The translations under genes and the position numbers were made by a program. From a virus: DNA of 50,486 nt. The notes beneath the pieces are model-generated. The model saw only the letters and a program-made list of their open reading frames with translations, made no database searches and had not been told where the DNA came from. Positions 1 through 50,486 of the stretch are shown one piece after another (the stretch's first letter is position 1; the number at the start of each line of letters is the position of its first letter). The DNA lies in the IMG/VR virus record IMGVR_UViG_3300033153_005771, positions 1 through 50,486 of that record; one strand, 5' to 3'.

Positions 1-112
1 CAAGAATGAGATCATCGATCTGGGATTCTCAGAGCCTATCTCGGTATGGGAGAACAGGGGTAAGAACTATATTCTGAACGGGCATCAGCGCCTTGTCACA
101 CTGACTAGGATG
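1..112. repeat. Terminal redundancy, left copy
   Basis: Identical to 50375-50486 except T at 106 where the right copy has C at 50480. It lies inside the ParB-like reading frame, and joining the ends restores an uninterrupted gene. The simplest reading is an assembly overlap of a circular or circularly permuted genome. The one mismatch suggests population variation or a read error. Confidence 0.9.
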
Positions 113-691
113 CGTGACTCCGGATACGATATCCCGCCGATACCAATATCGTCCGTATCAGCCAAGAACAAGTCAGAGGCCAAGCGGAAGGTGCTGGCGC
201 TCACTTCTCAGTATGGTGAGATGACCGAGGAGGGCCTTCGGGGATTCATGGCAGAGGCCGAGATTGCCCTTGCTGAGGTGAAGGACTCGTTTCGGTTTCC
301 TGAGATCGATTTTGCGGCGTTCGATAATCCTGATAGTTCCGGGGATGACGAGCCGTATTCAGCAAAAATAGAGGCCCCGATATATGAACCCACAGGACCG
401 CAGCCGGGATTCGATCAGATGCTCAGCAGGTCCAAAACAGTGGATCTCGTTTCAGAGATCGAGAAATCTGATATACCGGATGATATCAAGGAATTCCTGA
501 TGCTGGCAGCACAGAGGCACAATGTTTTCAACTATGAAAGTATCGCGAATTACTACGCCCATGCACCAGCAGAAGTCCAAAACCTGATGGAGCGGTCTGC
601 TCTGGTCATAATCGACTTCGACAAGGCGATTGAGAACGGATTTGTAACATTGTCAAAGGAATTGGCAGATACATATGCAAGAGATAAGTGA
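2..691 (+). CDS. ParB/Srx-fold nuclease-like protein (C-terminal part; starts at the other end of the window)
   Basis: The frame is open from base 2 and continues the ORF that begins at 50265; joined, the protein is about 267 residues. The joined N-terminal part carries the ParB-like sequence ILNGHQRLVTLTRM, equivalent to the ParB GHRR box that binds CTP or supports nuclease activity in ParB/Srx proteins. The rest (residues about 80-267) is less conserved, with an acidic linker near DNPDSSGDDEP and a helical C-terminus. It overlaps the next gene by 17 bases and lies just upstream of terminase. In phages such ParB-like proteins often neighbour terminases, DNA methylases and DNA-base glycosyltransferases. 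A role in marking or processing DNA for packaging is inference. An internal ATG at 110 could start a shorter product but would lose the ParB motif. Confidence 0.8.
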   Translation, partial: KNEIIDLGFSEPISVWENRGKNYILNGHQRLVTLTRMRDSGYDIPPIPISSVSAKNKSEAKRKVLALTSQYGEMTEEGLRGFMAEAEIALAEVKDSFRFPEIDFAAFDNPDSSGDDEPYSAKIEAPIYEPTGPQPGFDQMLSRSKTVDLVSEIEKSDIPDDIKEFLMLAAQRHNVFNYESIANYYAHAPAEVQNLMERSALVIIDFDKAIENGFVTLSKELADTYARDK

Positions 692-1586
692 TTCCGAACT
701 GCCCGAAGACTTCGCAATTTTTATCCTTACGCACGGGAGGCCCGATAATGTCAAGACCATAAGCACTCTCGAGCGCAGCGGGTATCGTGGTAAGATTTAC
801 TTCATTGTCGATGATCTGGATAAAACCGTTTCTAAATATATCGAGAATTTCGGGGAAGCAAATGTCATTGTCTTCGACAAGATGGCAGAGGCCTCCAAAA
901 CAGATTCGGCCGATACCCTAGACGATATGCGCACGATAACATATGCGAGGAATGCGAGTTTTCAGATTGCCAGAGATCTAGGGTTGAAGTATTTCATGCA
1001 ACTTGACGACGATTACACCAAGTTCGAATACCGTTTTAATGACAGGCTTAGATACAAGCCTGAGGTATTTACTACCGTACGGAAGAATCCCCGGCTAGAT
1101 GATGTTTTGGCACCAATTCTTAAATTTTATAAGAATGTAAACGTCGCTACAGTAGCAATATCACAAGGAGGCGACTGGATCGGCGGGGAAAATAGCAGTG
1201 CCGCAAAAGCCATAACTCCCAAGAGAAAGGCCATGAATTCGTTTATTTGTTCAGTAGATCGCCAGTTCAGATTTGTTGGCAGGATGAATGAGGATGTTAA
1301 TACTTACACATCGTTGGGTAGTCGTGGAGTATTGTTTCTAACGATAAATCAAGTCAGCCTTACTCAGATGGGAACGCAATCAAGCGAGGGCGGAATTACT
1401 GAACTCTACAAGTCATTCGGCACATATGTGAAGTCGTTCTACACGATCATGTTCCACCCGTCATCCGTGAAGATATCTCAAATAGGCAATGCAAGGGAGT
1501 CTATGAGAATCCATCATGCAGTAAAGTGGAAAAATACTGTACCGATGATCATAAGAGAAACCTGCAGGGCCAGCAATCCCGCTTGA
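675..1586 (+). CDS. TET-associated-type glycosyltransferase (GT-A fold), putative DNA base glycosylation
   Basis: 303 residues. The N-terminal strand ILTHGRPDNVKT followed by YFIVDDLDK and, at residues 107-113, FMQLDDD is the pattern of the phage TET-associated glycosyltransferases (TAGT family), with the DDD as the metal and nucleotide-sugar binding DxD. The second half holds a WIGGE motif and conserved FRFVGRMNEDVNTY, which in this family likely shapes the acceptor site. The start lies inside the ParB-like gene, so the two are probably translated together. Known family members glycosylate hydroxylated bases in phage DNA. I see no TET/JBP oxygenase or nucleotide hydroxymethylase in this genome, so the acceptor is unknown. 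A generic GT2-like glycosyltransferase acting on another substrate is the alternative. Confidence 0.7.
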   Translation: MQEISDSELPEDFAIFILTHGRPDNVKTISTLERSGYRGKIYFIVDDLDKTVSKYIENFGEANVIVFDKMAEASKTDSADTLDDMRTITYARNASFQIARDLGLKYFMQLDDDYTKFEYRFNDRLRYKPEVFTTVRKNPRLDDVLAPILKFYKNVNVATVAISQGGDWIGGENSSAAKAITPKRKAMNSFICSVDRQFRFVGRMNEDVNTYTSLGSRGVLFLTINQVSLTQMGTQSSEGGITELYKSFGTYVKSFYTIMFHPSSVKISQIGNARESMRIHHAVKWKNTVPMIIRETCRASNPA

Positions 1587-1609: not shown

Positions 1610-2125
1610 ATGGCTAAGCGTGGGCGAAAGAGCGCATGGGAAACGAAGATAGAGCCCCATCTCGATCAGATTATGGGATGGGCTCGCAATGGTCATCTGG
1701 ACAAGCAAATCTGTGAAGCGCTCGGAATCAGCCATCAGGCCTTCTGCAAATATAAAAAACTAAAAGACGAATTACGTGAAGCCTTAAAAGTCAATAAGGA
1801 AATCGCTGACTTGAGGGTCGAGGACTCTCTTTATAAGCGTGCCTTGGGCTACCAATACGAGGAAATTCATACAACTGTCCGCGCAGCGAAGGGGAATCAG
1901 CCGGAAACCGTTGAAATCAAAAAGATTAAAAAGACGGTTTTACCAGATACGACCGCTCAAATCTTCTGGCTGAAGAATAGGAAGCGGCTTGAGTGGCGCG
2001 ACGTTTGGAGGAAGGACGAGGACGCCGACGATTCGACTGACGCAAAACCCGTCACCCTGGCATACGACCCGACCAAGCGACTGACCGCAGAACCAGAGGC
2101 CCCAGATGAACGCACCGATCATTAG
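1610..2125 (+). CDS. Terminase small subunit
   Basis: 171 residues. An N-terminal basic segment and a helix-turn-helix-like region (residues about 25-50, KQICEALGISHQAFCKYKK) are followed by a helical region and the sequence DTTAQIFWLKNRKRLEWRD, which is highly typical of phage small terminases. It would recognise the packaging site and load the large subunit. The stop overlaps the large-subunit start by 20 bases, which fits the usual TerS-TerL pairing. A modest AGGA lies 9 bases before the ATG. Confidence 0.88.
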   Translation: MAKRGRKSAWETKIEPHLDQIMGWARNGHLDKQICEALGISHQAFCKYKKLKDELREALKVNKEIADLRVEDSLYKRALGYQYEEIHTTVRAAKGNQPETVEIKKIKKTVLPDTTAQIFWLKNRKRLEWRDVWRKDEDADDSTDAKPVTLAYDPTKRLTAEPEAPDERTDH

Positions 2126-3515
2126 GCGGTCCTCGACCCCGTCATTCAGCGAATTCGACCCGCTGCAAATCCCGATGCAGGCTCGGGTTATCGACGATGT
2201 TTTCCATAATTTCGATTATTCGTTGGGCGTGCATGAGGTTCTGCTCTCGGGGTCGGTGGGATCTTCGAAATCAATTTTGATGGCCCACATATTCACCCGC
2301 ATCCTCTGGCAATATCCAGGCGCTCGAGCGTGCCTGTGTCGTGAGGCCCTGCCCGACCTCAGGGATACCATTTACCGGAAAATCATTGAGCATCTTGAGG
2401 GCACGTTCGAGCGGGATCGGGATTATTCGACCCGTGAGACCAACGCCTATATCAAATTCAAAAACAAATCGGAAGGCATCAGCCGGACGTGGGCAGACAA
2501 GCGATACACCAAGCCCCGGTCCCTCGAGTTATGCCTCGCCCTGTTCGAAGAACTTATCGAGGCCGACGAGAAGGACTCGCAGTTCTACCATGAGGTCATC
2601 GCCAGGCTGAACAGACAGCCGCACGTGCCCATTCAGCTGGCCATCTGTGCCACGAACCCGGACAGCCCGAGCCATTGGGCATACAAGCACTTCATCGAGC
2701 CGAATATGGGCGGCAAGAAGCACCCGACGCGCCATGTCTACTATTCGGTGACGAGCGATAATCCCTTCCTACCGAAATCTTATATCTCGAAATTGCTTGA
2801 TAATTATGACGAGAAAACTGCTCAGAGGATGCTATTTGGCAAATGGATCGAGATAAAAACCGAGGTCATCTATCACGCATACTCAAGTGAAAACCAGAAG
2901 TTATCAGATAAATTTAATGTAAATTCTAGCTTTCCGATAATCATATCATGGGATTTCAATATTGGAGAAGGCAAGCCCATGTCATTGGTCATCATGCAAT
3001 TCGATACTGCGAAGGACATCCTCCACATCTTCGGGCAGGTCATCATCGAAGGGATGCGGACAGATGATAGTTGCGATGAACTCGCCGCGAGGGGATTTCT
3101 TGATTTCGGCAATGAGTATGTTATAACAGGCGACGCATCCGGCAAAAACCGCGATACTAGATCAAAGCGCTCGGACTATGATATAATCCGGAAATATATG
3201 AGCAACTACCTGACAAAAACTAGAAATCACTTGAAATTTACCATGGCCGTGCCGAAGGCGAACCCGCCAGTGCGGACCCGGCACAACACGTTGAATGGAT
3301 ATTGCAAAAACGCCAAGGGGCGTCATCGCCTGTTCGTCTATGAAGGTTGCCCGATCATCGACGAGGGACTCCGACTCACCGCTCTGAAAAAGGGCGGGCT
3401 GTACATCGAGGACGACTCGAAGTCGTATCAGCATTGCACTACCGCGATAGGCTACGGCCTTTTCACTGCCATCAGACGACGCGATACGAAACCGCAGGGG
3501 AGTGTCCAGCTATGA
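2106..3515 (+). CDS. Terminase large subunit (packaging ATPase and nuclease)
   Basis: 469 residues, normal for a TerL. Walker A is at residues 48-56 (SGSVGSSKS), and the Walker B region with the catalytic glutamate is LCLALFEEL at about 139-147. The C-terminal RNase H-like nuclease shows ISWDFNIGEG and ITGDASGKNRDTRS with acidic metal ligands. It would pump DNA into the prohead through the portal and cut concatemers. It overlaps the portal start by four bases (ATGA). The Walker A serine residues replace the more common GGRGSGKS form, as seen in several phage TerL branches. Confidence 0.93.
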   Translation: MNAPIIRRSSTPSFSEFDPLQIPMQARVIDDVFHNFDYSLGVHEVLLSGSVGSSKSILMAHIFTRILWQYPGARACLCREALPDLRDTIYRKIIEHLEGTFERDRDYSTRETNAYIKFKNKSEGISRTWADKRYTKPRSLELCLALFEELIEADEKDSQFYHEVIARLNRQPHVPIQLAICATNPDSPSHWAYKHFIEPNMGGKKHPTRHVYYSVTSDNPFLPKSYISKLLDNYDEKTAQRMLFGKWIEIKTEVIYHAYSSENQKLSDKFNVNSSFPIIISWDFNIGEGKPMSLVIMQFDTAKDILHIFGQVIIEGMRTDDSCDELAARGFLDFGNEYVITGDASGKNRDTRSKRSDYDIIRKYMSNYLTKTRNHLKFTMAVPKANPPVRTRHNTLNGYCKNAKGRHRLFVYEGCPIIDEGLRLTALKKGGLYIEDDSKSYQHCTTAIGYGLFTAIRRRDTKPQGSVQL

Positions 3516-26750: not shown

Positions 26751-27440
26751 CTACATAGAGCACAGGCGACATGCAGTCTTTCTTCGGCGCTGCTTTGGGA
26801 CTCGGCCCGATTCGAATTCGGCACGCATATCCTTCAGTGCTGCCGGCCATGTGTCCCTTCCCGGTGATCTGAACGTATACCCTGTCTGATGCTCCCATTC
26901 CTCACCCTTGACATATTCATCAGGATAATACGTCAGCAATTCCCACCATTCGTGGAGCGTCTGATAAAAGCAGACGGCGCAATCTGTCCTTTTCGGTGGC
27001 TCGAATCCCTTTGATCGGCAATATCCGATTACATCATCAATGCCCCACTTCCAATCACGCAGAGGATATACGATCTTGTTTCCCTCGTAGATTCCGCCAG
27101 CACGTCCCTCCTCATCTGATCTCAGACCGACAGCAAGGACAGCATCAGGATGAGTAGAGAGCCACTGAGCACACGGTTCGATCTTGATCATCCGCGTACA
27201 CCACCTCATCCTCCAATTCGGAAGGCATCCCTGTTCGTCAATCAATTCAGAGAGCGTCGGGGCATTTAGATCGATCAGTTCTGAATCGGTTGCCTTGGCA
27301 ACGGCTTCGATATGCGTTCTGACTTGCGGGAGTTCGTTTCCTGTCGCCGTATGGAGGAGTCTGAATAGATGGCCACGCTCGGCCAATCGGAGGGCGAGAG
27401 CAGTTGAATCCTTTCCACCTGAGAATGCGACGATTAGCAT
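26751..27440 (-). CDS. PP-loop ATP pyrophosphatase, PAPS reductase-like
   Basis: 229 residues. The P-loop SGGKDST lies at residues 7-13, followed by the family's NWRMRWCTRMIKIEP, VGLRSDEEGRAG, and two Cys pairs (CAVCF and near the C-terminus CRLC). Proteins of this family activate a substrate with ATP; in bacteria relatives reduce PAPS, modify tRNA or insert sulfur into DNA (DndC). The substrate here cannot be told. It is the last gene of the leftward operon and starts three bases after the stop of the holin-like gene. A second, longer PP-loop gene lies at 44591-45487. Confidence 0.8.
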   Translation of the reverse strand: MLIVAFSGGKDSTALALRLAERGHLFRLLHTATGNELPQVRTHIEAVAKATDSELIDLNAPTLSELIDEQGCLPNWRMRWCTRMIKIEPCAQWLSTHPDAVLAVGLRSDEEGRAGGIYEGNKIVYPLRDWKWGIDDVIGYCRSKGFEPPKRTDCAVCFYQTLHEWWELLTYYPDEYVKGEEWEHQTGYTFRSPGRDTWPAALKDMRAEFESGRVPKQRRRKTACRLCSM

Positions 27441-30658: not shown

Positions 30659-30952
30659 TTACAGCGCTATCAAGAGCGCCTTGTTGAATACAATCCGAGC
30701 ACCGCCATCCCGGAAACGATGGACGGGTTTAATCCATCCATCGAGAAACTTCCTTTCGTTGGGCGGGATATTCCGCCACTTCGCCACGTATGCAGCGTCT
30801 AAGGCGAATCCGATAGGGTCAGGGCCCTGCATTGATCCAGTGAGGTATCCGTGATCAGCCAGCCATCGCTCGGCCATGTGCAATGCCTCGAATGGCCCGC
30901 ACGGCTTGATTTCCACGGTATTCTTCTCACACGTCACTGTTTTCTTTTCCAT
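30659..30952 (-). CDS. Small protein overlapping the DNA methyltransferase, unknown
   Basis: 97 residues. The start at 30952 has AGGGGAG at proper distance, and the gene overlaps the methyltransferase end by 26 bases. Middle: AERWLADHGYLTGSMQGPDP. No motif recognised. The tight overlap suggests it is made together with the methyltransferase. Confidence 0.55.
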   Translation of the reverse strand: MEKKTVTCEKNTVEIKPCGPFEALHMAERWLADHGYLTGSMQGPDPIGFALDAAYVAKWRNIPPNERKFLDGWIKPVHRFRDGGARIVFNKALLIAL

Positions 30953-31826
30953 CGAACAACTCCCCTTGATGGTGAGAGGTTTCGGCCTTATGCAGATTCT
31001 TCACCGCTACATCGAAATATGACCGCTTTAGCTCCACTCCCATGAACCTGCGGCCCATCCGGAGGGCTTGATATCCTTCTGAGCCGATGCCAGCGAAGGG
31101 TGAGAACACAAGATCATCAGGCCGCGACCACAGCCCTACACACCGTTCTATGACGCCCAACTGCAAGGGGCATATGTGGCGGCAATCGTCATCATCACGC
31201 GCCCCAGACTTATTGAGCGTGTTGCTCATATTGATGTCTGTCCAAATCGGGGAGGCCCATTTCTGCCATTGGGCGACAGGGAATTCTTCTGGTGTGTGCG
31301 ATATCGGATCGGGATTCTCGCCGGGTTTCCGCATGGTCACGACATAATCAGGGATACCCATCCGAGACATGGCCGAATCCTTTTTGATCTGCTTCCACAG
31401 CAACCCGAGGGCTTTGGTTCGCTGCATGGCGGTCACGGGGTCTTTCCATATGCAAACTTCGGAATGGAAGATCCAGCCAGCATCCACATACATTTTGATC
31501 AACTCGCCCCTAAAATCACGGATGCCAATATATCCGTGATTCTGCTTGGACGTGGGCAGGTTCATGCAATGGAAAGATAATAGCCTTCCAGGCTTTGTGA
31601 TTCTGAGTAGATCCTCAACGAGAAATAAAAAGTGATCGTAGAACACGGTATCGCTGGACGAGTTACCCATATCGCGGTCTGAATTTGAATAAACATATAA
31701 TTGGGAAAATGGGGGAGAGAAAACCGAGTAATCGATACTTGATTCTGGTAATGCGCGGGATACCTCTACACAATCGCCATGGTACAGGACCCATCTATCT
31801 CTGATACATTGATCAATGACTTTCAT
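30927..31826 (-). CDS. Beta-class DNA methyltransferase (N4-cytosine or N6-adenine)
   Basis: 299 residues. Catalytic motif IV SPPF is at residues 37-40 and the AdoMet-binding motif FAGIGSEG at about 244-251; this order is that of beta-class amino methyltransferases. SPPF is more common in N4-cytosine enzymes. The C-terminal GRRFMGVELKRSYF closes the AdoMet fold. The target sequence cannot be read from the gene. It is the third gene after an SNF2 helicase and an HNH endonuclease, overlapping the latter by 14 bases, which suggests these three act together or move together. Confidence 0.85.
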   Translation of the reverse strand: MKVIDQCIRDRWVLYHGDCVEVSRALPESSIDYSVFSPPFSQLYVYSNSDRDMGNSSSDTVFYDHFLFLVEDLLRITKPGRLLSFHCMNLPTSKQNHGYIGIRDFRGELIKMYVDAGWIFHSEVCIWKDPVTAMQRTKALGLLWKQIKKDSAMSRMGIPDYVVTMRKPGENPDPISHTPEEFPVAQWQKWASPIWTDINMSNTLNKSGARDDDDCRHICPLQLGVIERCVGLWSRPDDLVFSPFAGIGSEGYQALRMGRRFMGVELKRSYFDVAVKNLHKAETSHHQGELFDGKENSDV

Positions 31827-32571
31827 TTATGTACTCCCCGGTTTCATTTTTGGAACTGTGGACGTATTTATGACACGATCGACACAGAAGGATCAAATTG
31901 TTCTGATTGCAGCGGAAACGTTTATATTCGAATCCAGCTATGTGGTGTATGTCAAATGTGCCCCGATTCGTTGTTTCATTATGGTGCTTGCGGCATCGCC
32001 GACAAGTTGCGCAGTCTCTTTTCCAAACGGAGATCACCGCCTTCTTCCATTTTTCAGAAGAATAGATGGACTGCCTTTCTGGCGTAATCCCGCCCTTCCA
32101 ATTAGGCGTGTCTGGCCCTGTTTTGCCTTTAAGATGATGAACGCCATTTTTCAAATACGGAACATGGCCGTCTGCAAGTCGAATGTCCCGTATTTTATCG
32201 CGGGCTTCTTTCGTATGCTTACGCCCCTTGAAAAGGCTCACCTGACCTTTTTTAAAATGCTGCCGGACATCCGTCCCACGGCTTCTCGTCTCTATGCCGT
32301 AATCCATCAGCCATTCCCACACCCTCTTAGAATTACGATTTACAATTCGCGCGATCTGCGTGCAGTCGAGTCCTTCAGCCACATATTTCTGATATAACCA
32401 CTCTTTTGTCCACCCCCTCAATTCGCGCTGATGTATCTGCCATTTACCCTTACACCCCCTATCGCAGAAGAAATTCTTTATTGGCCTGTAATTATCTGGG
32501 CCCAGTAAGCGCCTTTTCAGAGGCGCGTCACACCATGAGCAGATTACATTGTGGATGGGATTTCTATCCAT
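31813..32571 (-). CDS. HNH endonuclease with NUMOD3-like DNA-binding segment
   Basis: 252 residues from ATG 32571, which overlaps the helicase stop by eight bases. The N-terminus has CSWC and CDRGCKG pairs; then comes a helix-turn-helix-like part (LDCTQIARIVNRNSKRVWEW); then GRKHTKEARDKIRDIR, a NUMOD3 motif typical of homing endonucleases; then the HNH fold with CRRC, FDIHHI, NNLILLCRSCHKYVH. Such genes usually cut a fixed DNA site and can spread themselves. Unlike a free homing gene, it is joined by overlaps on both sides to its neighbours. Confidence 0.82.
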   Translation of the reverse strand: MDRNPIHNVICSWCDAPLKRRLLGPDNYRPIKNFFCDRGCKGKWQIHQRELRGWTKEWLYQKYVAEGLDCTQIARIVNRNSKRVWEWLMDYGIETRSRGTDVRQHFKKGQVSLFKGRKHTKEARDKIRDIRLADGHVPYLKNGVHHLKGKTGPDTPNWKGGITPERQSIYSSEKWKKAVISVWKRDCATCRRCRKHHNETTNRGTFDIHHIAGFEYKRFRCNQNNLILLCRSCHKYVHSSKNETGEYINESH

Positions 32572-33991
32572 TGATCCATCCTGGAATAATGATGTCCATG
32601 TTGGGCTCGTATACCGTAACATCTCTTTTCAGGGATGATATTTTTCGTCTTGTAAAATCACGCATATATTCGACCATGGCGCCTGATAACTCTTGGGCCT
32701 GCCTCTCCTTGCGCTTTATGTTCTCAAGCACCGCGCCTTCGATATCTGCTGTAATGATATGCACATCGACGGGATTCTCCTGACCGAACCGCCAGAAACG
32801 GCGCGTGGCCTGATATAGCTGTTCGAATGAATCATTCAGGCCTACAAAGATCGTTTGATTGCATATCTGCAGATTCAAACCGAATCCCGCGATAGATGGC
32901 TTTGTGATCAGAACACGGATGTCACCATTCACAAATCCCATCACTCGATTTTCTTTATCCTCAGACTTGTGGGAGCCTCTCACCTCAACTGCGCCATCAA
33001 TCGCTTTAGTGAGCTTTTCGCTCTCGTCGTTCCGATGGCACCACACGAGAACCTTTCCGCTCATGCCATTTGCAATCTCAGCAGCCCTCGCCACTCGGAT
33101 ATCGACCGTCCGGCGCCTTGCTGTGATACGCTCTGAGAGCGACTGTGCCACATGGGGGAATAGCTCGCCATCCAGAAGCATGCCCGATTCAATGCAATGC
33201 TCATGATGGTTCAACGGGGGCAGATCATATCCTTCGTCTGAGAATCCAAGATCAGATGGCTTCTTGATGGCGACACCCCACGTAGACAGCCATTCCCAGA
33301 ATTTGGTTTTCCCATGTCCCTTCAAGACCCATTTAGATGTCTGCCCGCCGTCATGCGTGAAAAACATGGCAAGCATCTCAGCCATGGACATGATGCCCAG
33401 AAATTCGGCTTGGTTTCCGAGTTCCATATGATCATTCGGGCTCGGGGTCGCTGTGCAGGATAGCCGGTGCGGGATCTCACGACATAATTCTATAAGGCGC
33501 TTGCGGGTCTTGCCGTCTATTGATTTCAAGATACTGGATTCGTCCAGCACGATACCATCGAAAAAACAGGCTTTGATACCTTGCTCGAAGTGATCCACCA
33601 TCTCATAGTTCGTGATGAAGATGCCCGTGTCGTATGCATTTGGCCCTATCCTCAATTCATCGAACGACCTCACATATTTCACGGGCACGCCGAACTTTGC
33701 ACCCTCACGAACAGTCTGATGGGCAACGCATAGCGGGGCAAATATCAATACGCGGTTGCCCGTATGCTGGTGGACGATCCATGCCCAAATGAGTTGCATG
33801 GGCGTCTTACCGAGTCCCGTATCGGCGAATATAGCGGCCCGCCCTCGCCGGACAGCCCAGTCTATAATTGACTTTTGAAACGGAAACGGCCGATATTCCC
33901 CATGACTCGGGTATAGGCCTTCGTCGGGCTCGAAGCCCGAATTGATATCTTCGAATCGCTTCGATTCCAGGAACGTATTATATTCGTTCAT
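32564..33991 (-). CDS. SNF2/DEAD-type helicase
   Basis: 475 residues. Motif I ADTGLGKT is at 56-63, motif II is LDESS (149-153) in place of DEAD or DEAH, motif III SCTATPSPND, and the second RecA domain ends with QATRRFWRFGQENPVDVH, the SNF2 motif VI. Similar helicases with DESS occur in many phages. It would move along or remodel DNA with ATP. It is the first gene after the leftward promoter at 34102-34130 and is followed by the HNH nuclease and methyltransferase. Confidence 0.85.
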   Translation of the reverse strand: MNEYNTFLESKRFEDINSGFEPDEGLYPSHGEYRPFPFQKSIIDWAVRRGRAAIFADTGLGKTPMQLIWAWIVHQHTGNRVLIFAPLCVAHQTVREGAKFGVPVKYVRSFDELRIGPNAYDTGIFITNYEMVDHFEQGIKACFFDGIVLDESSILKSIDGKTRKRLIELCREIPHRLSCTATPSPNDHMELGNQAEFLGIMSMAEMLAMFFTHDGGQTSKWVLKGHGKTKFWEWLSTWGVAIKKPSDLGFSDEGYDLPPLNHHEHCIESGMLLDGELFPHVAQSLSERITARRRTVDIRVARAAEIANGMSGKVLVWCHRNDESEKLTKAIDGAVEVRGSHKSEDKENRVMGFVNGDIRVLITKPSIAGFGLNLQICNQTIFVGLNDSFEQLYQATRRFWRFGQENPVDVHIITADIEGAVLENIKRKERQAQELSGAMVEYMRDFTRRKISSLKRDVTVYEPNMDIIIPGWING

Positions 33992-41622: not shown

Positions 41623-41892
41623 ATGAGCCTAAATAGCGATTGCCCAAGATGCAAGGGCCATCTTGCTCCATCCTCGCCCATATTCATGAGCGGAAAGTGG
41701 AAATGGGTGATTGATTGTATAAGCTGTGGCCTGAGTATTCCGAGCACTGTGCCAGAGCACTATCGCAAGGATCGATATGCAGTGGACCATACGTCGGATC
41801 ATAATAAGCAGACGCCCTTTTCGAATCAATATGAAAACTTGATATATATCGACTATGACATCGATGAGCCTGGAAAGGATGGAGGATGTTGA
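41623..41892 (+). CDS. Small zinc-ribbon protein
   Basis: 89 residues. CPRC and, 23 residues later, CISC form a zinc ribbon in the first 40 residues; the rest is polar and ends KDGGC. It overlaps the start of the methyltransferase by seven bases, so may be coupled. Function unknown. Confidence 0.65.
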   Translation: MSLNSDCPRCKGHLAPSSPIFMSGKWKWVIDCISCGLSIPSTVPEHYRKDRYAVDHTSDHNKQTPFSNQYENLIYIDYDIDEPGKDGGC

Positions 41893-42980
41893 ATGGGCTG
41901 GATATACCTAGCGTGCTCAGATCGCTCGACCTGTTCAGCGGGCGAGGAGCCCAAGCACGAGCCCTATCGCCGTGGATCATGCCTGCCGCCTACTGTGAAA
42001 TCAATCGATACTCCCAGCGAATACTTCTGGCAGAGATGGCACGAGGAGCGATTCCGACTGCGCCTATCTGTGACGATATACGCTCGCTCACTGCCGACAT
42101 GCTGCCATTCCGACCCGACATCGTTGTTGCTGCCGTGCCCTGTCAAGGATTTTCCTGTGCAGGTCGCGGTGAAGGCCTGGATCACGAGTCAAGCGCACTT
42201 TTCTTCGAAGTGCTCAGACTTGTCACTGATATTCGACCCGCCTTCGTGTTCCTGGAAAACAGCCCAGCAATCACTGTTCGAGGAGGGTCAGAAGTCATGG
42301 CCCGATTTGCCGCGCTTCGGTATGATTCGCGATGGTGCATGCTGTCCGCTGAAGAAGTCGGCAATGCGTGCCATAAAAGAGATCGATGGTGGTGCTTACT
42401 TGCCAACGCCGACAGTATCTCAGCGCACGAACCAAGGCGGCGGCAGCGGGATAGTCGGCAAGGATCGGCACAGCTTGAGCGGGATGGCCAAACGGGAGAT
42501 GGTCCCAACGCCCTGCAAAGCGGGGGGAGGAAGGGCGATTCCAGAGGATGCCAATTTCAGCGGGCTGACTTGCGCATACAAGAAAAATGGGACGAAAGTT
42601 CAGGTGGCCCTGGATGTCCTGGCGAAACGCAAGAGAATCCCGACTCCAACCAAAACAGATGCCAGGGGGCGCGGATATCAGAGGAGCAGGGGGGGGGCAA
42701 TCTACATGAGTCTCATAGGACTGGCGAAAGCGAAAATACCGGCACCAGTGAAACACGACGAACGCGAGCCTCATCCGAAAGACATGGAGCGGAGAACAAT
42801 CCCATGCAACGCACTTGCGAATGCGTCTATGCTGCCAGGACATCCGCAAGGCGCGTACAACCCAGAGTATACAGAACAGGTCTTGGGATCGCGCATAGGT
42901 CACACCGCATTGCCGCCTTGGGCGAAAGTTGGGATGAACCAACGGCGCGGGAAGCATTCAAAATCTTGATGAGGCTATGA
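41886..42980 (+). CDS. DNA cytosine-C5 methyltransferase
   Basis: 364 residues. AdoMet motif I LDLFSGRG (14-21), catalytic motif IV PCQGFS (85-90, active Cys 86), motif VI as VFLENSPAI (about 121-129) and motif VIII as HKRDRWWCL. The C-terminal end VYRTGLGIAHRSHRIAALGE matches the closing motif of this family. Residues about 195-310 are a polar, low-complexity region where the target recognition domain is expected. It would methylate cytosines in phage DNA; the target cannot be read. A second frame (41893-42969) is open over nearly all of it. Confidence 0.85.
   Translation: MLNGLDIPSVLRSLDLFSGRGAQARALSPWIMPAAYCEINRYSQRILLAEMARGAIPTAPICDDIRSLTADMLPFRPDIVVAAVPCQGFSCAGRGEGLDHESSALFFEVLRLVTDIRPAFVFLENSPAITVRGGSEVMARFAALRYDSRWCMLSAEEVGNACHKRDRWWCLLANADSISAHEPRRRQRDSRQGSAQLERDGQTGDGPNALQSGGRKGDSRGCQFQRADLRIQEKWDESSGGPGCPGETQENPDSNQNRCQGARISEEQGGGNLHESHRTGESENTGTSETRRTRASSERHGAENNPMQRTCECVYAARTSARRVQPRVYRTGLGIAHRSHRIAALGESWDEPTAREAFKILMRL
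41893..42969 (+). CDS. Alternative +1 frame over the cytosine methyltransferase (possible overlapping gene)
   Basis: 358 codons open from ATG 41893. Its second half shows WPDLPRFGMIRDGACC, GGAYLPTPTVSQRTNQGGG, two further PTP repeats (VPTPCKAGGG, IPTPTKTDARG) and YNPEYTEQVLG. From memory this is the pattern of proteins annotated next to or with phage Dcm enzymes. The same bases give LANADSIS in the main frame and LPTPTVSQ here. It could be a translated overlapping gene, a frame shared by ancient frameshift, or a compositional shadow. A long antisense frame in the same region argues for the last. Confidence 0.3.
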   Translation: MGWIYLACSDRSTCSAGEEPKHEPYRRGSCLPPTVKSIDTPSEYFWQRWHEERFRLRLSVTIYARSLPTCCHSDPTSLLLPCPVKDFPVQVAVKAWITSQAHFSSKCSDLSLIFDPPSCSWKTAQQSLFEEGQKSWPDLPRFGMIRDGACCPLKKSAMRAIKEIDGGAYLPTPTVSQRTNQGGGSGIVGKDRHSLSGMAKREMVPTPCKAGGGRAIPEDANFSGLTCAYKKNGTKVQVALDVLAKRKRIPTPTKTDARGRGYQRSRGGAIYMSLIGLAKAKIPAPVKHDEREPHPKDMERRTIPCNALANASMLPGHPQGAYNPEYTEQVLGSRIGHTALPPWAKVGMNQRRGKHSKS

Positions 42981-50264: not shown

Positions 50265-50486
50265 ATGAATACTATCGAAATAAAATGCGCAGGCTCGAGC
50301 ACTCTACCCATCGAAGAACTCACACCGTTTCAGGGAGACCTCAAAACCCTGTCCGATGAGAATTACGAAAAGCTCAAGAATGAGATCATCGATCTGGGAT
50401 TCTCAGAGCCTATCTCGGTATGGGAGAACAGGGGTAAGAACTATATTCTGAACGGGCATCAGCGCCTTGTCACACTGACCAGGATG
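50265..50486 (+). CDS. ParB/Srx-fold nuclease-like protein (N-terminal part; continues at position 2)
   Basis: Begins MNTIEIKCAGSSTLPIEELT and contains EIIDLGFSEPISVWENRGKN and ILNGHQRLVTLTRM, the ParB-like core. It runs off the right end in frame with the ORF open at base 2. Start chosen as the first ATG after the extended -10; no Shine-Dalgarno site is present. Confidence 0.8.
   Translation, partial: MNTIEIKCAGSSTLPIEELTPFQGDLKTLSDENYEKLKNEIIDLGFSEPISVWENRGKNYILNGHQRLVTLTRM
50375..50486. repeat. Terminal redundancy, right copy
   Basis: Matches 1-112 with one mismatch (C at 50480 against T at 106). In the ParB frame the change falls in the third base of an ACT/ACC threonine codon, so it is silent. 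Confidence 0.9.

Follow-up and report, generated by a model that had tools for sequence, protein, structure and literature searches.

To our knowledge, the sugar-modified phage DNAs understood so far carry their sugars on bases that have been hydroxylated, either by a TET enzyme or at the nucleotide stage. O-glycosylation of a DNA base normally requires a hydroxyl group. The TAGT family of glycosyltransferases was reportedly defined by Iyer et al. in 2013. A hydroxycytosine case of sugar-modified phage DNA has been described (PMC13390438). The passages on TAGT in PMC13216743 place the T6 beta-glucosyl-HMC alpha-glucosyltransferase (ggt) in the TAGT Pfam family and report solitary TAGTs, without an alpha- or beta-glucosyltransferase, in 288 of 753 phage genomes.

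We analyzed a TAGT locus in the virus record IMGVR_UViG_3300033153_005771, which was taken in its entirety (50,486 nt; hereafter the window). Positions 1-112 recur at 50375-50486 with one mismatch, and the window is therefore apparently circular and probably a complete genome. The full ParB-PAD gene spans the contig junction (50265-50374 joined to 1-691; 266 aa). The features are as follows:

50265..50486, + strand: start of the ParB-PAD gene; 50375-50486 is the duplicate of 1-112
1..337, + strand: ParB-N (ParB/Srx), the N-terminal part of ParB-PAD, whose gene starts at 50265; phrog_620 E=1.1e-14, NGHQR motif
338..691, + strand: PAD, an all-helical C-terminal domain of about 115 aa and obligate TAGT partner; profiles and structure model
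675..1586, + strand: TAGT glycosyltransferase, PAD-linked subfamily, GT-A fold; PF20691 E=3.6e-37
1610..2125, + strand: terminase small subunit, TAGT neighbour outside the module; phrog_309 E=4.6e-44
2106..3515, + strand: terminase large subunit, neighbour outside the module; PF04466 E=1.1e-16
30927-31826, - strand: N6/N4-type methyltransferase
41886..42980, + strand: C5-cytosine methyltransferase-like gene; PF00145 E=2.5e-24, profile positions 2-170 of 324

The ORF at 675-1586 (303 aa) is a genuine phage TAGT. An earlier, sequence-only reading had recognized the family from short motifs, and the profile searches bear this out, with a PF20691 score of 128.7 bits against a curated cut-off of 27.5 and a match to phrog_842 at E=1e-68. 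The gene order given in that reading also holds, since the ATG of TAGT sits within the upstream ParB-like gene (overlap of 17 nt) and the two terminase genes follow. The name of phrog_842 refers to a T6-type beta-glucosyl-HMC alpha-glucosyltransferase; no direct sequence relation to T6 ggt was found with the TAGT profiles built in this analysis. Structure prediction yielded a model with a pLDDT of 91.4 and structural matches to GT-A enzymes. Across 55 sequences, residues D111-D113, N205, D207, H280 and H281 were invariant or at least 90% conserved, forming the motifs D-D-D, N-E-D and H-H, in line with the metal and donor sites of GT-A enzymes.

The best PDB match of the TAGT model was AvpGT, a nucleoside 3'-O-glucosyltransferase (PMC11959488), although with a TM of about 0.41 the two resemble each other only weakly. 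About equal matches were obtained with other GT-A enzymes, some of which (SunS, for example) glycosylate proteins, and collagen GalT was also among the matches. These matches, together with the position of TAGT next to the terminase in most lineages, are what may be expected of an enzyme that glycosylates a protein, for example a virion, portal or terminase protein. However, the giant Vibrio phages carry the pair beside a helicase, not a terminase, and no structural protein is common to all carriers in the eight-genome BLASTP comparison given below. Since the partners of ParB-N also turn out to be DNA-modifying enzymes, we consider a protein acceptor quite improbable.

Relatives of the locus were collected by tblastn (41 phage records) and by pattern scans (278 in IMG/VR and 8 in bacterial genomes). 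The sequence-only reading had tied TAGT to ParB. The overlap with a ParB-like gene is real, but ParB itself is not essential. Profiles placed the conserved part of the gene in its C-terminal 115 or so residues, termed PAD, and the ParB-N domain is swapped or absent. About 55 loci contain PAD alone and 40 contain ParB-N plus PAD; the profiles likewise showed that the candidate "short ParB" proteins are PAD alone and not a ParB-N domain. A scan starting from PAD found TAGT directly downstream or one gene away in 76 of 76 loci, counting as adjacent five loci in which the PAD-TAGT overlap exceeded the limit set in the script. The TAGT loci of this clade that have no PAD are three that begin at a contig edge and that of Lactobacillus phage Ld17, in which PAD is lost and TAGT is degraded. 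The two genes overlap in 148 of 152 cases.

The distances within the two families support the same pairing. Over a non-redundant set of 64 long-form loci, TAGT distances were correlated with those of PAD (Mantel rho 0.356, reached in 0 of 200 permutations) but not with those of ParB-N (rho 0.001, p 0.44). PAD and TAGT therefore form a core that co-evolves, to which ParB-N has been added by swapping or from which it has been lost. ParB-PAD and TAGT were also the only two families common to all eight genomes in a BLASTP comparison of a varied set of bacterial and archaeal phages and prophages, in which some genomes are covered partly and distant relatives are missed by BLASTP. The set consisted of the window, HHTV-2, Nocardia NTR1, Lactobacillus c5, Lactobacillus jlb1, Porphyromonas phage 005b, an E. 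coli Rac-like phage and a Bacteroides ihuae prophage; the next most shared family was the terminase, in five of the eight. We conclude that the conserved partner of TAGT is PAD and not ParB-N.

The structure model of PAD is all-helical (pLDDT 80.6), and seven of its residues are invariant (Y6, Y15, R59, H60, Y72, E84 and D92), with H60 as the single invariant histidine. No PDB structural match was obtained at E<=0.001 and the viral structure library returned two close relatives only, so that PAD was rejected as a recognizable fold. A PDB profile match to Fusobacterium adhesin A (E=0.006) was dismissed as a coiled-coil chance match. With no known fold to assign, an adaptor role is suggested for PAD by analogy.

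The obligate presence and high conservation of PAD would also suit a hydroxylase of an unrecognized kind, which could be PAD itself or unrelated enzymes in different phages, and which would hydroxylate a base for TAGT to glycosylate. Known TAGT pathways need hydroxylation, and the TAGT of T6 sits beside a dCMP hydroxymethylase. However, the usual 2-His-1-carboxylate and diiron sites need more than a single invariant histidine. This argues against PAD being a non-haem iron oxygenase of the usual type, although PAD may still be catalytic. PAD has no structural match to oxygenases, the window proteins include no oxygenase-family member, and no further gene was common to the eight genomes compared. 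Based on this evidence, we regard an unrecognized hydroxylase as unlikely.

Searches for the known hydroxylases gave consistent results. The sequence-only reading had noted by eye that no TET enzyme or hydroxymethylase was visible, and profile searches of the whole record agree, with no Tet_JBP, no Thymidylat_synt (the thymidylate-synthase/hydroxymethylase family), and no oxygenase family among the 59 proteins (Pfam, E<=0.01). We therefore rejected the idea that the window hides a TET or hydroxymethylase gene. The absence extends to the family: none of 49 related records gave a Tet_JBP match, and the same search recovered the TET gene of mycobacteriophage Nigel as a positive control (E=4e-8). 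Thymidylat_synt matched 2 of 50 records, many of which are fragments and several complete genomes. Both matches are in giant myoviruses: pv27 is a carrier of the PAD-TAGT module, and Aeromonas phage 65 has a TAGT of another clade; none of the small PAD-TAGT phages tested within the 50 records had a match. The absence of TET and hydroxymethylase is thus the rule for the PAD-linked TAGT subfamily.

A C5 methyltransferase is present in the window, as the sequence-only reading had reported; only the N-terminal half of its product matches the PF00145 profile. Such genes occurred in only 3 of 50 related records and are not conserved with the module, and C5 methylation was rejected as a general first step. 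The same reading had offered a host-made modified base as a possible acceptor, which would fit the failure to find a phage-encoded hydroxylase. However, the hosts span Haloarcula, Nocardia, Lactobacillus, Bacteroidota and enterobacteria such as E. coli, and we know of no hydroxylated DNA base that is common to them. Because the module occurs across such diverse hosts, a host-made base is very improbable as a general answer, and both this acceptor and a protein are less likely than DNA.

The case for DNA rests mainly on the company that ParB-N keeps. In the window, ParB-N shares an operon with the predicted modifying enzyme TAGT, and a Pfam scan of the 59 window proteins (E<=0.01) for the partner expected in ParABS partition found no ParA family. 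The commonest ParB-N type was present in 80 loci of the scan, 10 of them with TAGT (nine with PAD, and locus L338 with another adaptor). Pfam assignments in 65 non-TAGT loci of this type included 49 N6/N4 methyltransferases, 6 Mom proteins (PF25680), 1 C5 methyltransferase and 1 PAPS-reductase protein, and a queuine tRNA-ribosyltransferase-like protein was another partner according to PHROGs. The nearest relatives of the window ParB-N are Porphyromonas phage fusion proteins of ParB-N and a methyltransferase, encoded just upstream of the terminase. In phage Nigel, the related ParB-N protein gp1 (E=6e-14) is encoded by a gene that overlaps that of the TET oxygenase gp2. Phage DNA-modifying enzymes thus often have ParB-N beside them, and by guilt by association DNA is favoured as the acceptor; the suggestion in the sequence-only reading that the acceptor might not be DNA at all has become less likely. 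Since about half of the loci have no ParB-N, targeting by ParB cannot be general.

Several further observations were made on these genes. In loci L284, L293, L303, L311, L316 and L341, Mom family genes lie directly 3' of ParB-N genes, and the Mom-linked ParB-N proteins bear short C-terminal tails of their own; the tails of ParB-N proteins look enzyme-specific. A PAPS-reductase-family gene is located at 26751-27440 (- strand) in the window, and in locus L323 a gene of this family adjoins the ParB-N gene. An SNF2 helicase and an N6/N4 methyltransferase form a single ORF in locus L025 (2193-4097) and are split in the window (30927-33991, - strand), where an HNH gene at 31813-32622 separates them. 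The HNH gene looks like a homing-endonuclease insertion.

The operon is also frequent in E. coli, in which 865 of 5426 complete genomes (about 16%) match at least 80% of the operon-bearing stretch. Its context there is a Rac-type prophage (for example locus L180, 15220-16933). Strain K-12 has kept only a ParB-N stump, the truncated remnant ynaK (JM109, locus L181, 3220-3483). The truncated K-12 gene is probably the reason why intact ynaK-PAD genes carry a pseudogene annotation, and some PGAP records name the TAGT a "GREB1-related protein". With the operon this widespread in E. coli, its function lends itself to testing in laboratory strains of the species.

A second TAGT clade, which includes Aeromonas phages 65 and Aeh1 and many small phages, was separated from the PAD clade by a branch with 100/100 support. 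The clade has a small adaptor of its own, different from PAD, which 72 of 85 loci encode in a separate gene upstream and most others within the TAGT polypeptide; in locus L338 it is fused to ParB-N. The consensus of this adaptor reads EWKGMPEF...KSIWFPFKE (L182-L261, L098-L101 and L338). Tet_JBP was found in 0 of 50 and Thymidylat_synt in 1 of 50 records of this clade, so that a TET gene adjacent to TAGT was rejected as the norm here too. The fusions of adaptors to TAGT and to ParB-N suggest that the small adaptors are subunits that bridge TAGT and its guide.

The operons vary in additional genes, as expected if these serve in making or decorating sugars. A fusion gene for a histidine phosphatase and a cytidylyltransferase lies between PAD and TAGT in loci L131, L138, L139 and L158, and is a possible source of a phage-made activated-sugar donor. 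A SAM methyltransferase is present within the operon in L026, L032, L082, L166 and others. In L025 (5041-6699), two tandem TAGT domains form one polypeptide, which perhaps adds two sugars.

Based on these comparisons, the genes at 50265-691 and 675-1586 are predicted to form a two-component DNA-glycosylation module, in which TAGT glycosylates phage DNA, assisted by PAD as an adaptor and optionally by ParB-N as a guide; we assign this reading a probability of roughly 0.6. TAGT would act as a GT-A sugar transferase on a nucleotide-sugar normally supplied by the host, PAD as its dedicated helical subunit, and ParB-N, when present, as an interchangeable targeting domain. Newly made phage DNA would be glycosylated before packaging, probably at limited sites selected by ParB, and may thereby be protected from host nucleases. 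Counting against this explanation, the hydroxyl for O-glycosylation is not accounted for by the genes found. On this view neither TET nor a nucleotide hydroxymethylase supplies the acceptor, and the module would most likely either modify an ordinary group of DNA or generate an acceptor itself. Candidate sources are direct transfer, an acceptor made by PAD and a supply that differs from phage to phage. A more specific form, in which TAGT-PAD is a self-contained, hydroxylase-independent glycosyltransferase of unmodified DNA (at a base amine or the deoxyribose) and a swappable ParB chooses the sites, is tentative and in our view somewhat doubtful. If true, it would provide viruses of bacteria and archaea with a hydroxylase-independent route to glycosylated DNA, carried silently by about one-sixth of E. 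coli genomes. A widespread two-gene module without homologues of TET or thymidylate-synthase-type hydroxymethylases suggests that either the DNA chemistry or the hydroxylase is of a new kind. It also points to ParB as a guide domain that can be reused by different DNA-modifying enzymes.

Compared with known systems, the locus resembles the TAGT family PF20691 in its strong profile match, GT-A fold and conserved active-site residues. It differs from TET-linked TAGT systems in having neither TET nor hydroxymethylase and in belonging to a clade of its own, apart from the Aeromonas 65/Aeh1-like enzymes, and from T6, where ggt has the dCMP hydroxymethylase gene at its side, in that the window has no such gene. 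Solitary TAGTs are known, but a full-text search of limited coverage found no published account of a ParB-N/PAD-TAGT module, and the TAGT passages of PMC13216743 describe neither ParB-N, PAD nor an adaptor. The closest parallel in organization is offered by the phage pairs of ParB-N with a methyltransferase, Mom or TET, which share the same ParB-N type and operon logic and often lie near the terminase. In the module described here, however, the enzyme is a glycosyltransferase, and ParB-N, which about half of the loci lack, is joined to PAD.
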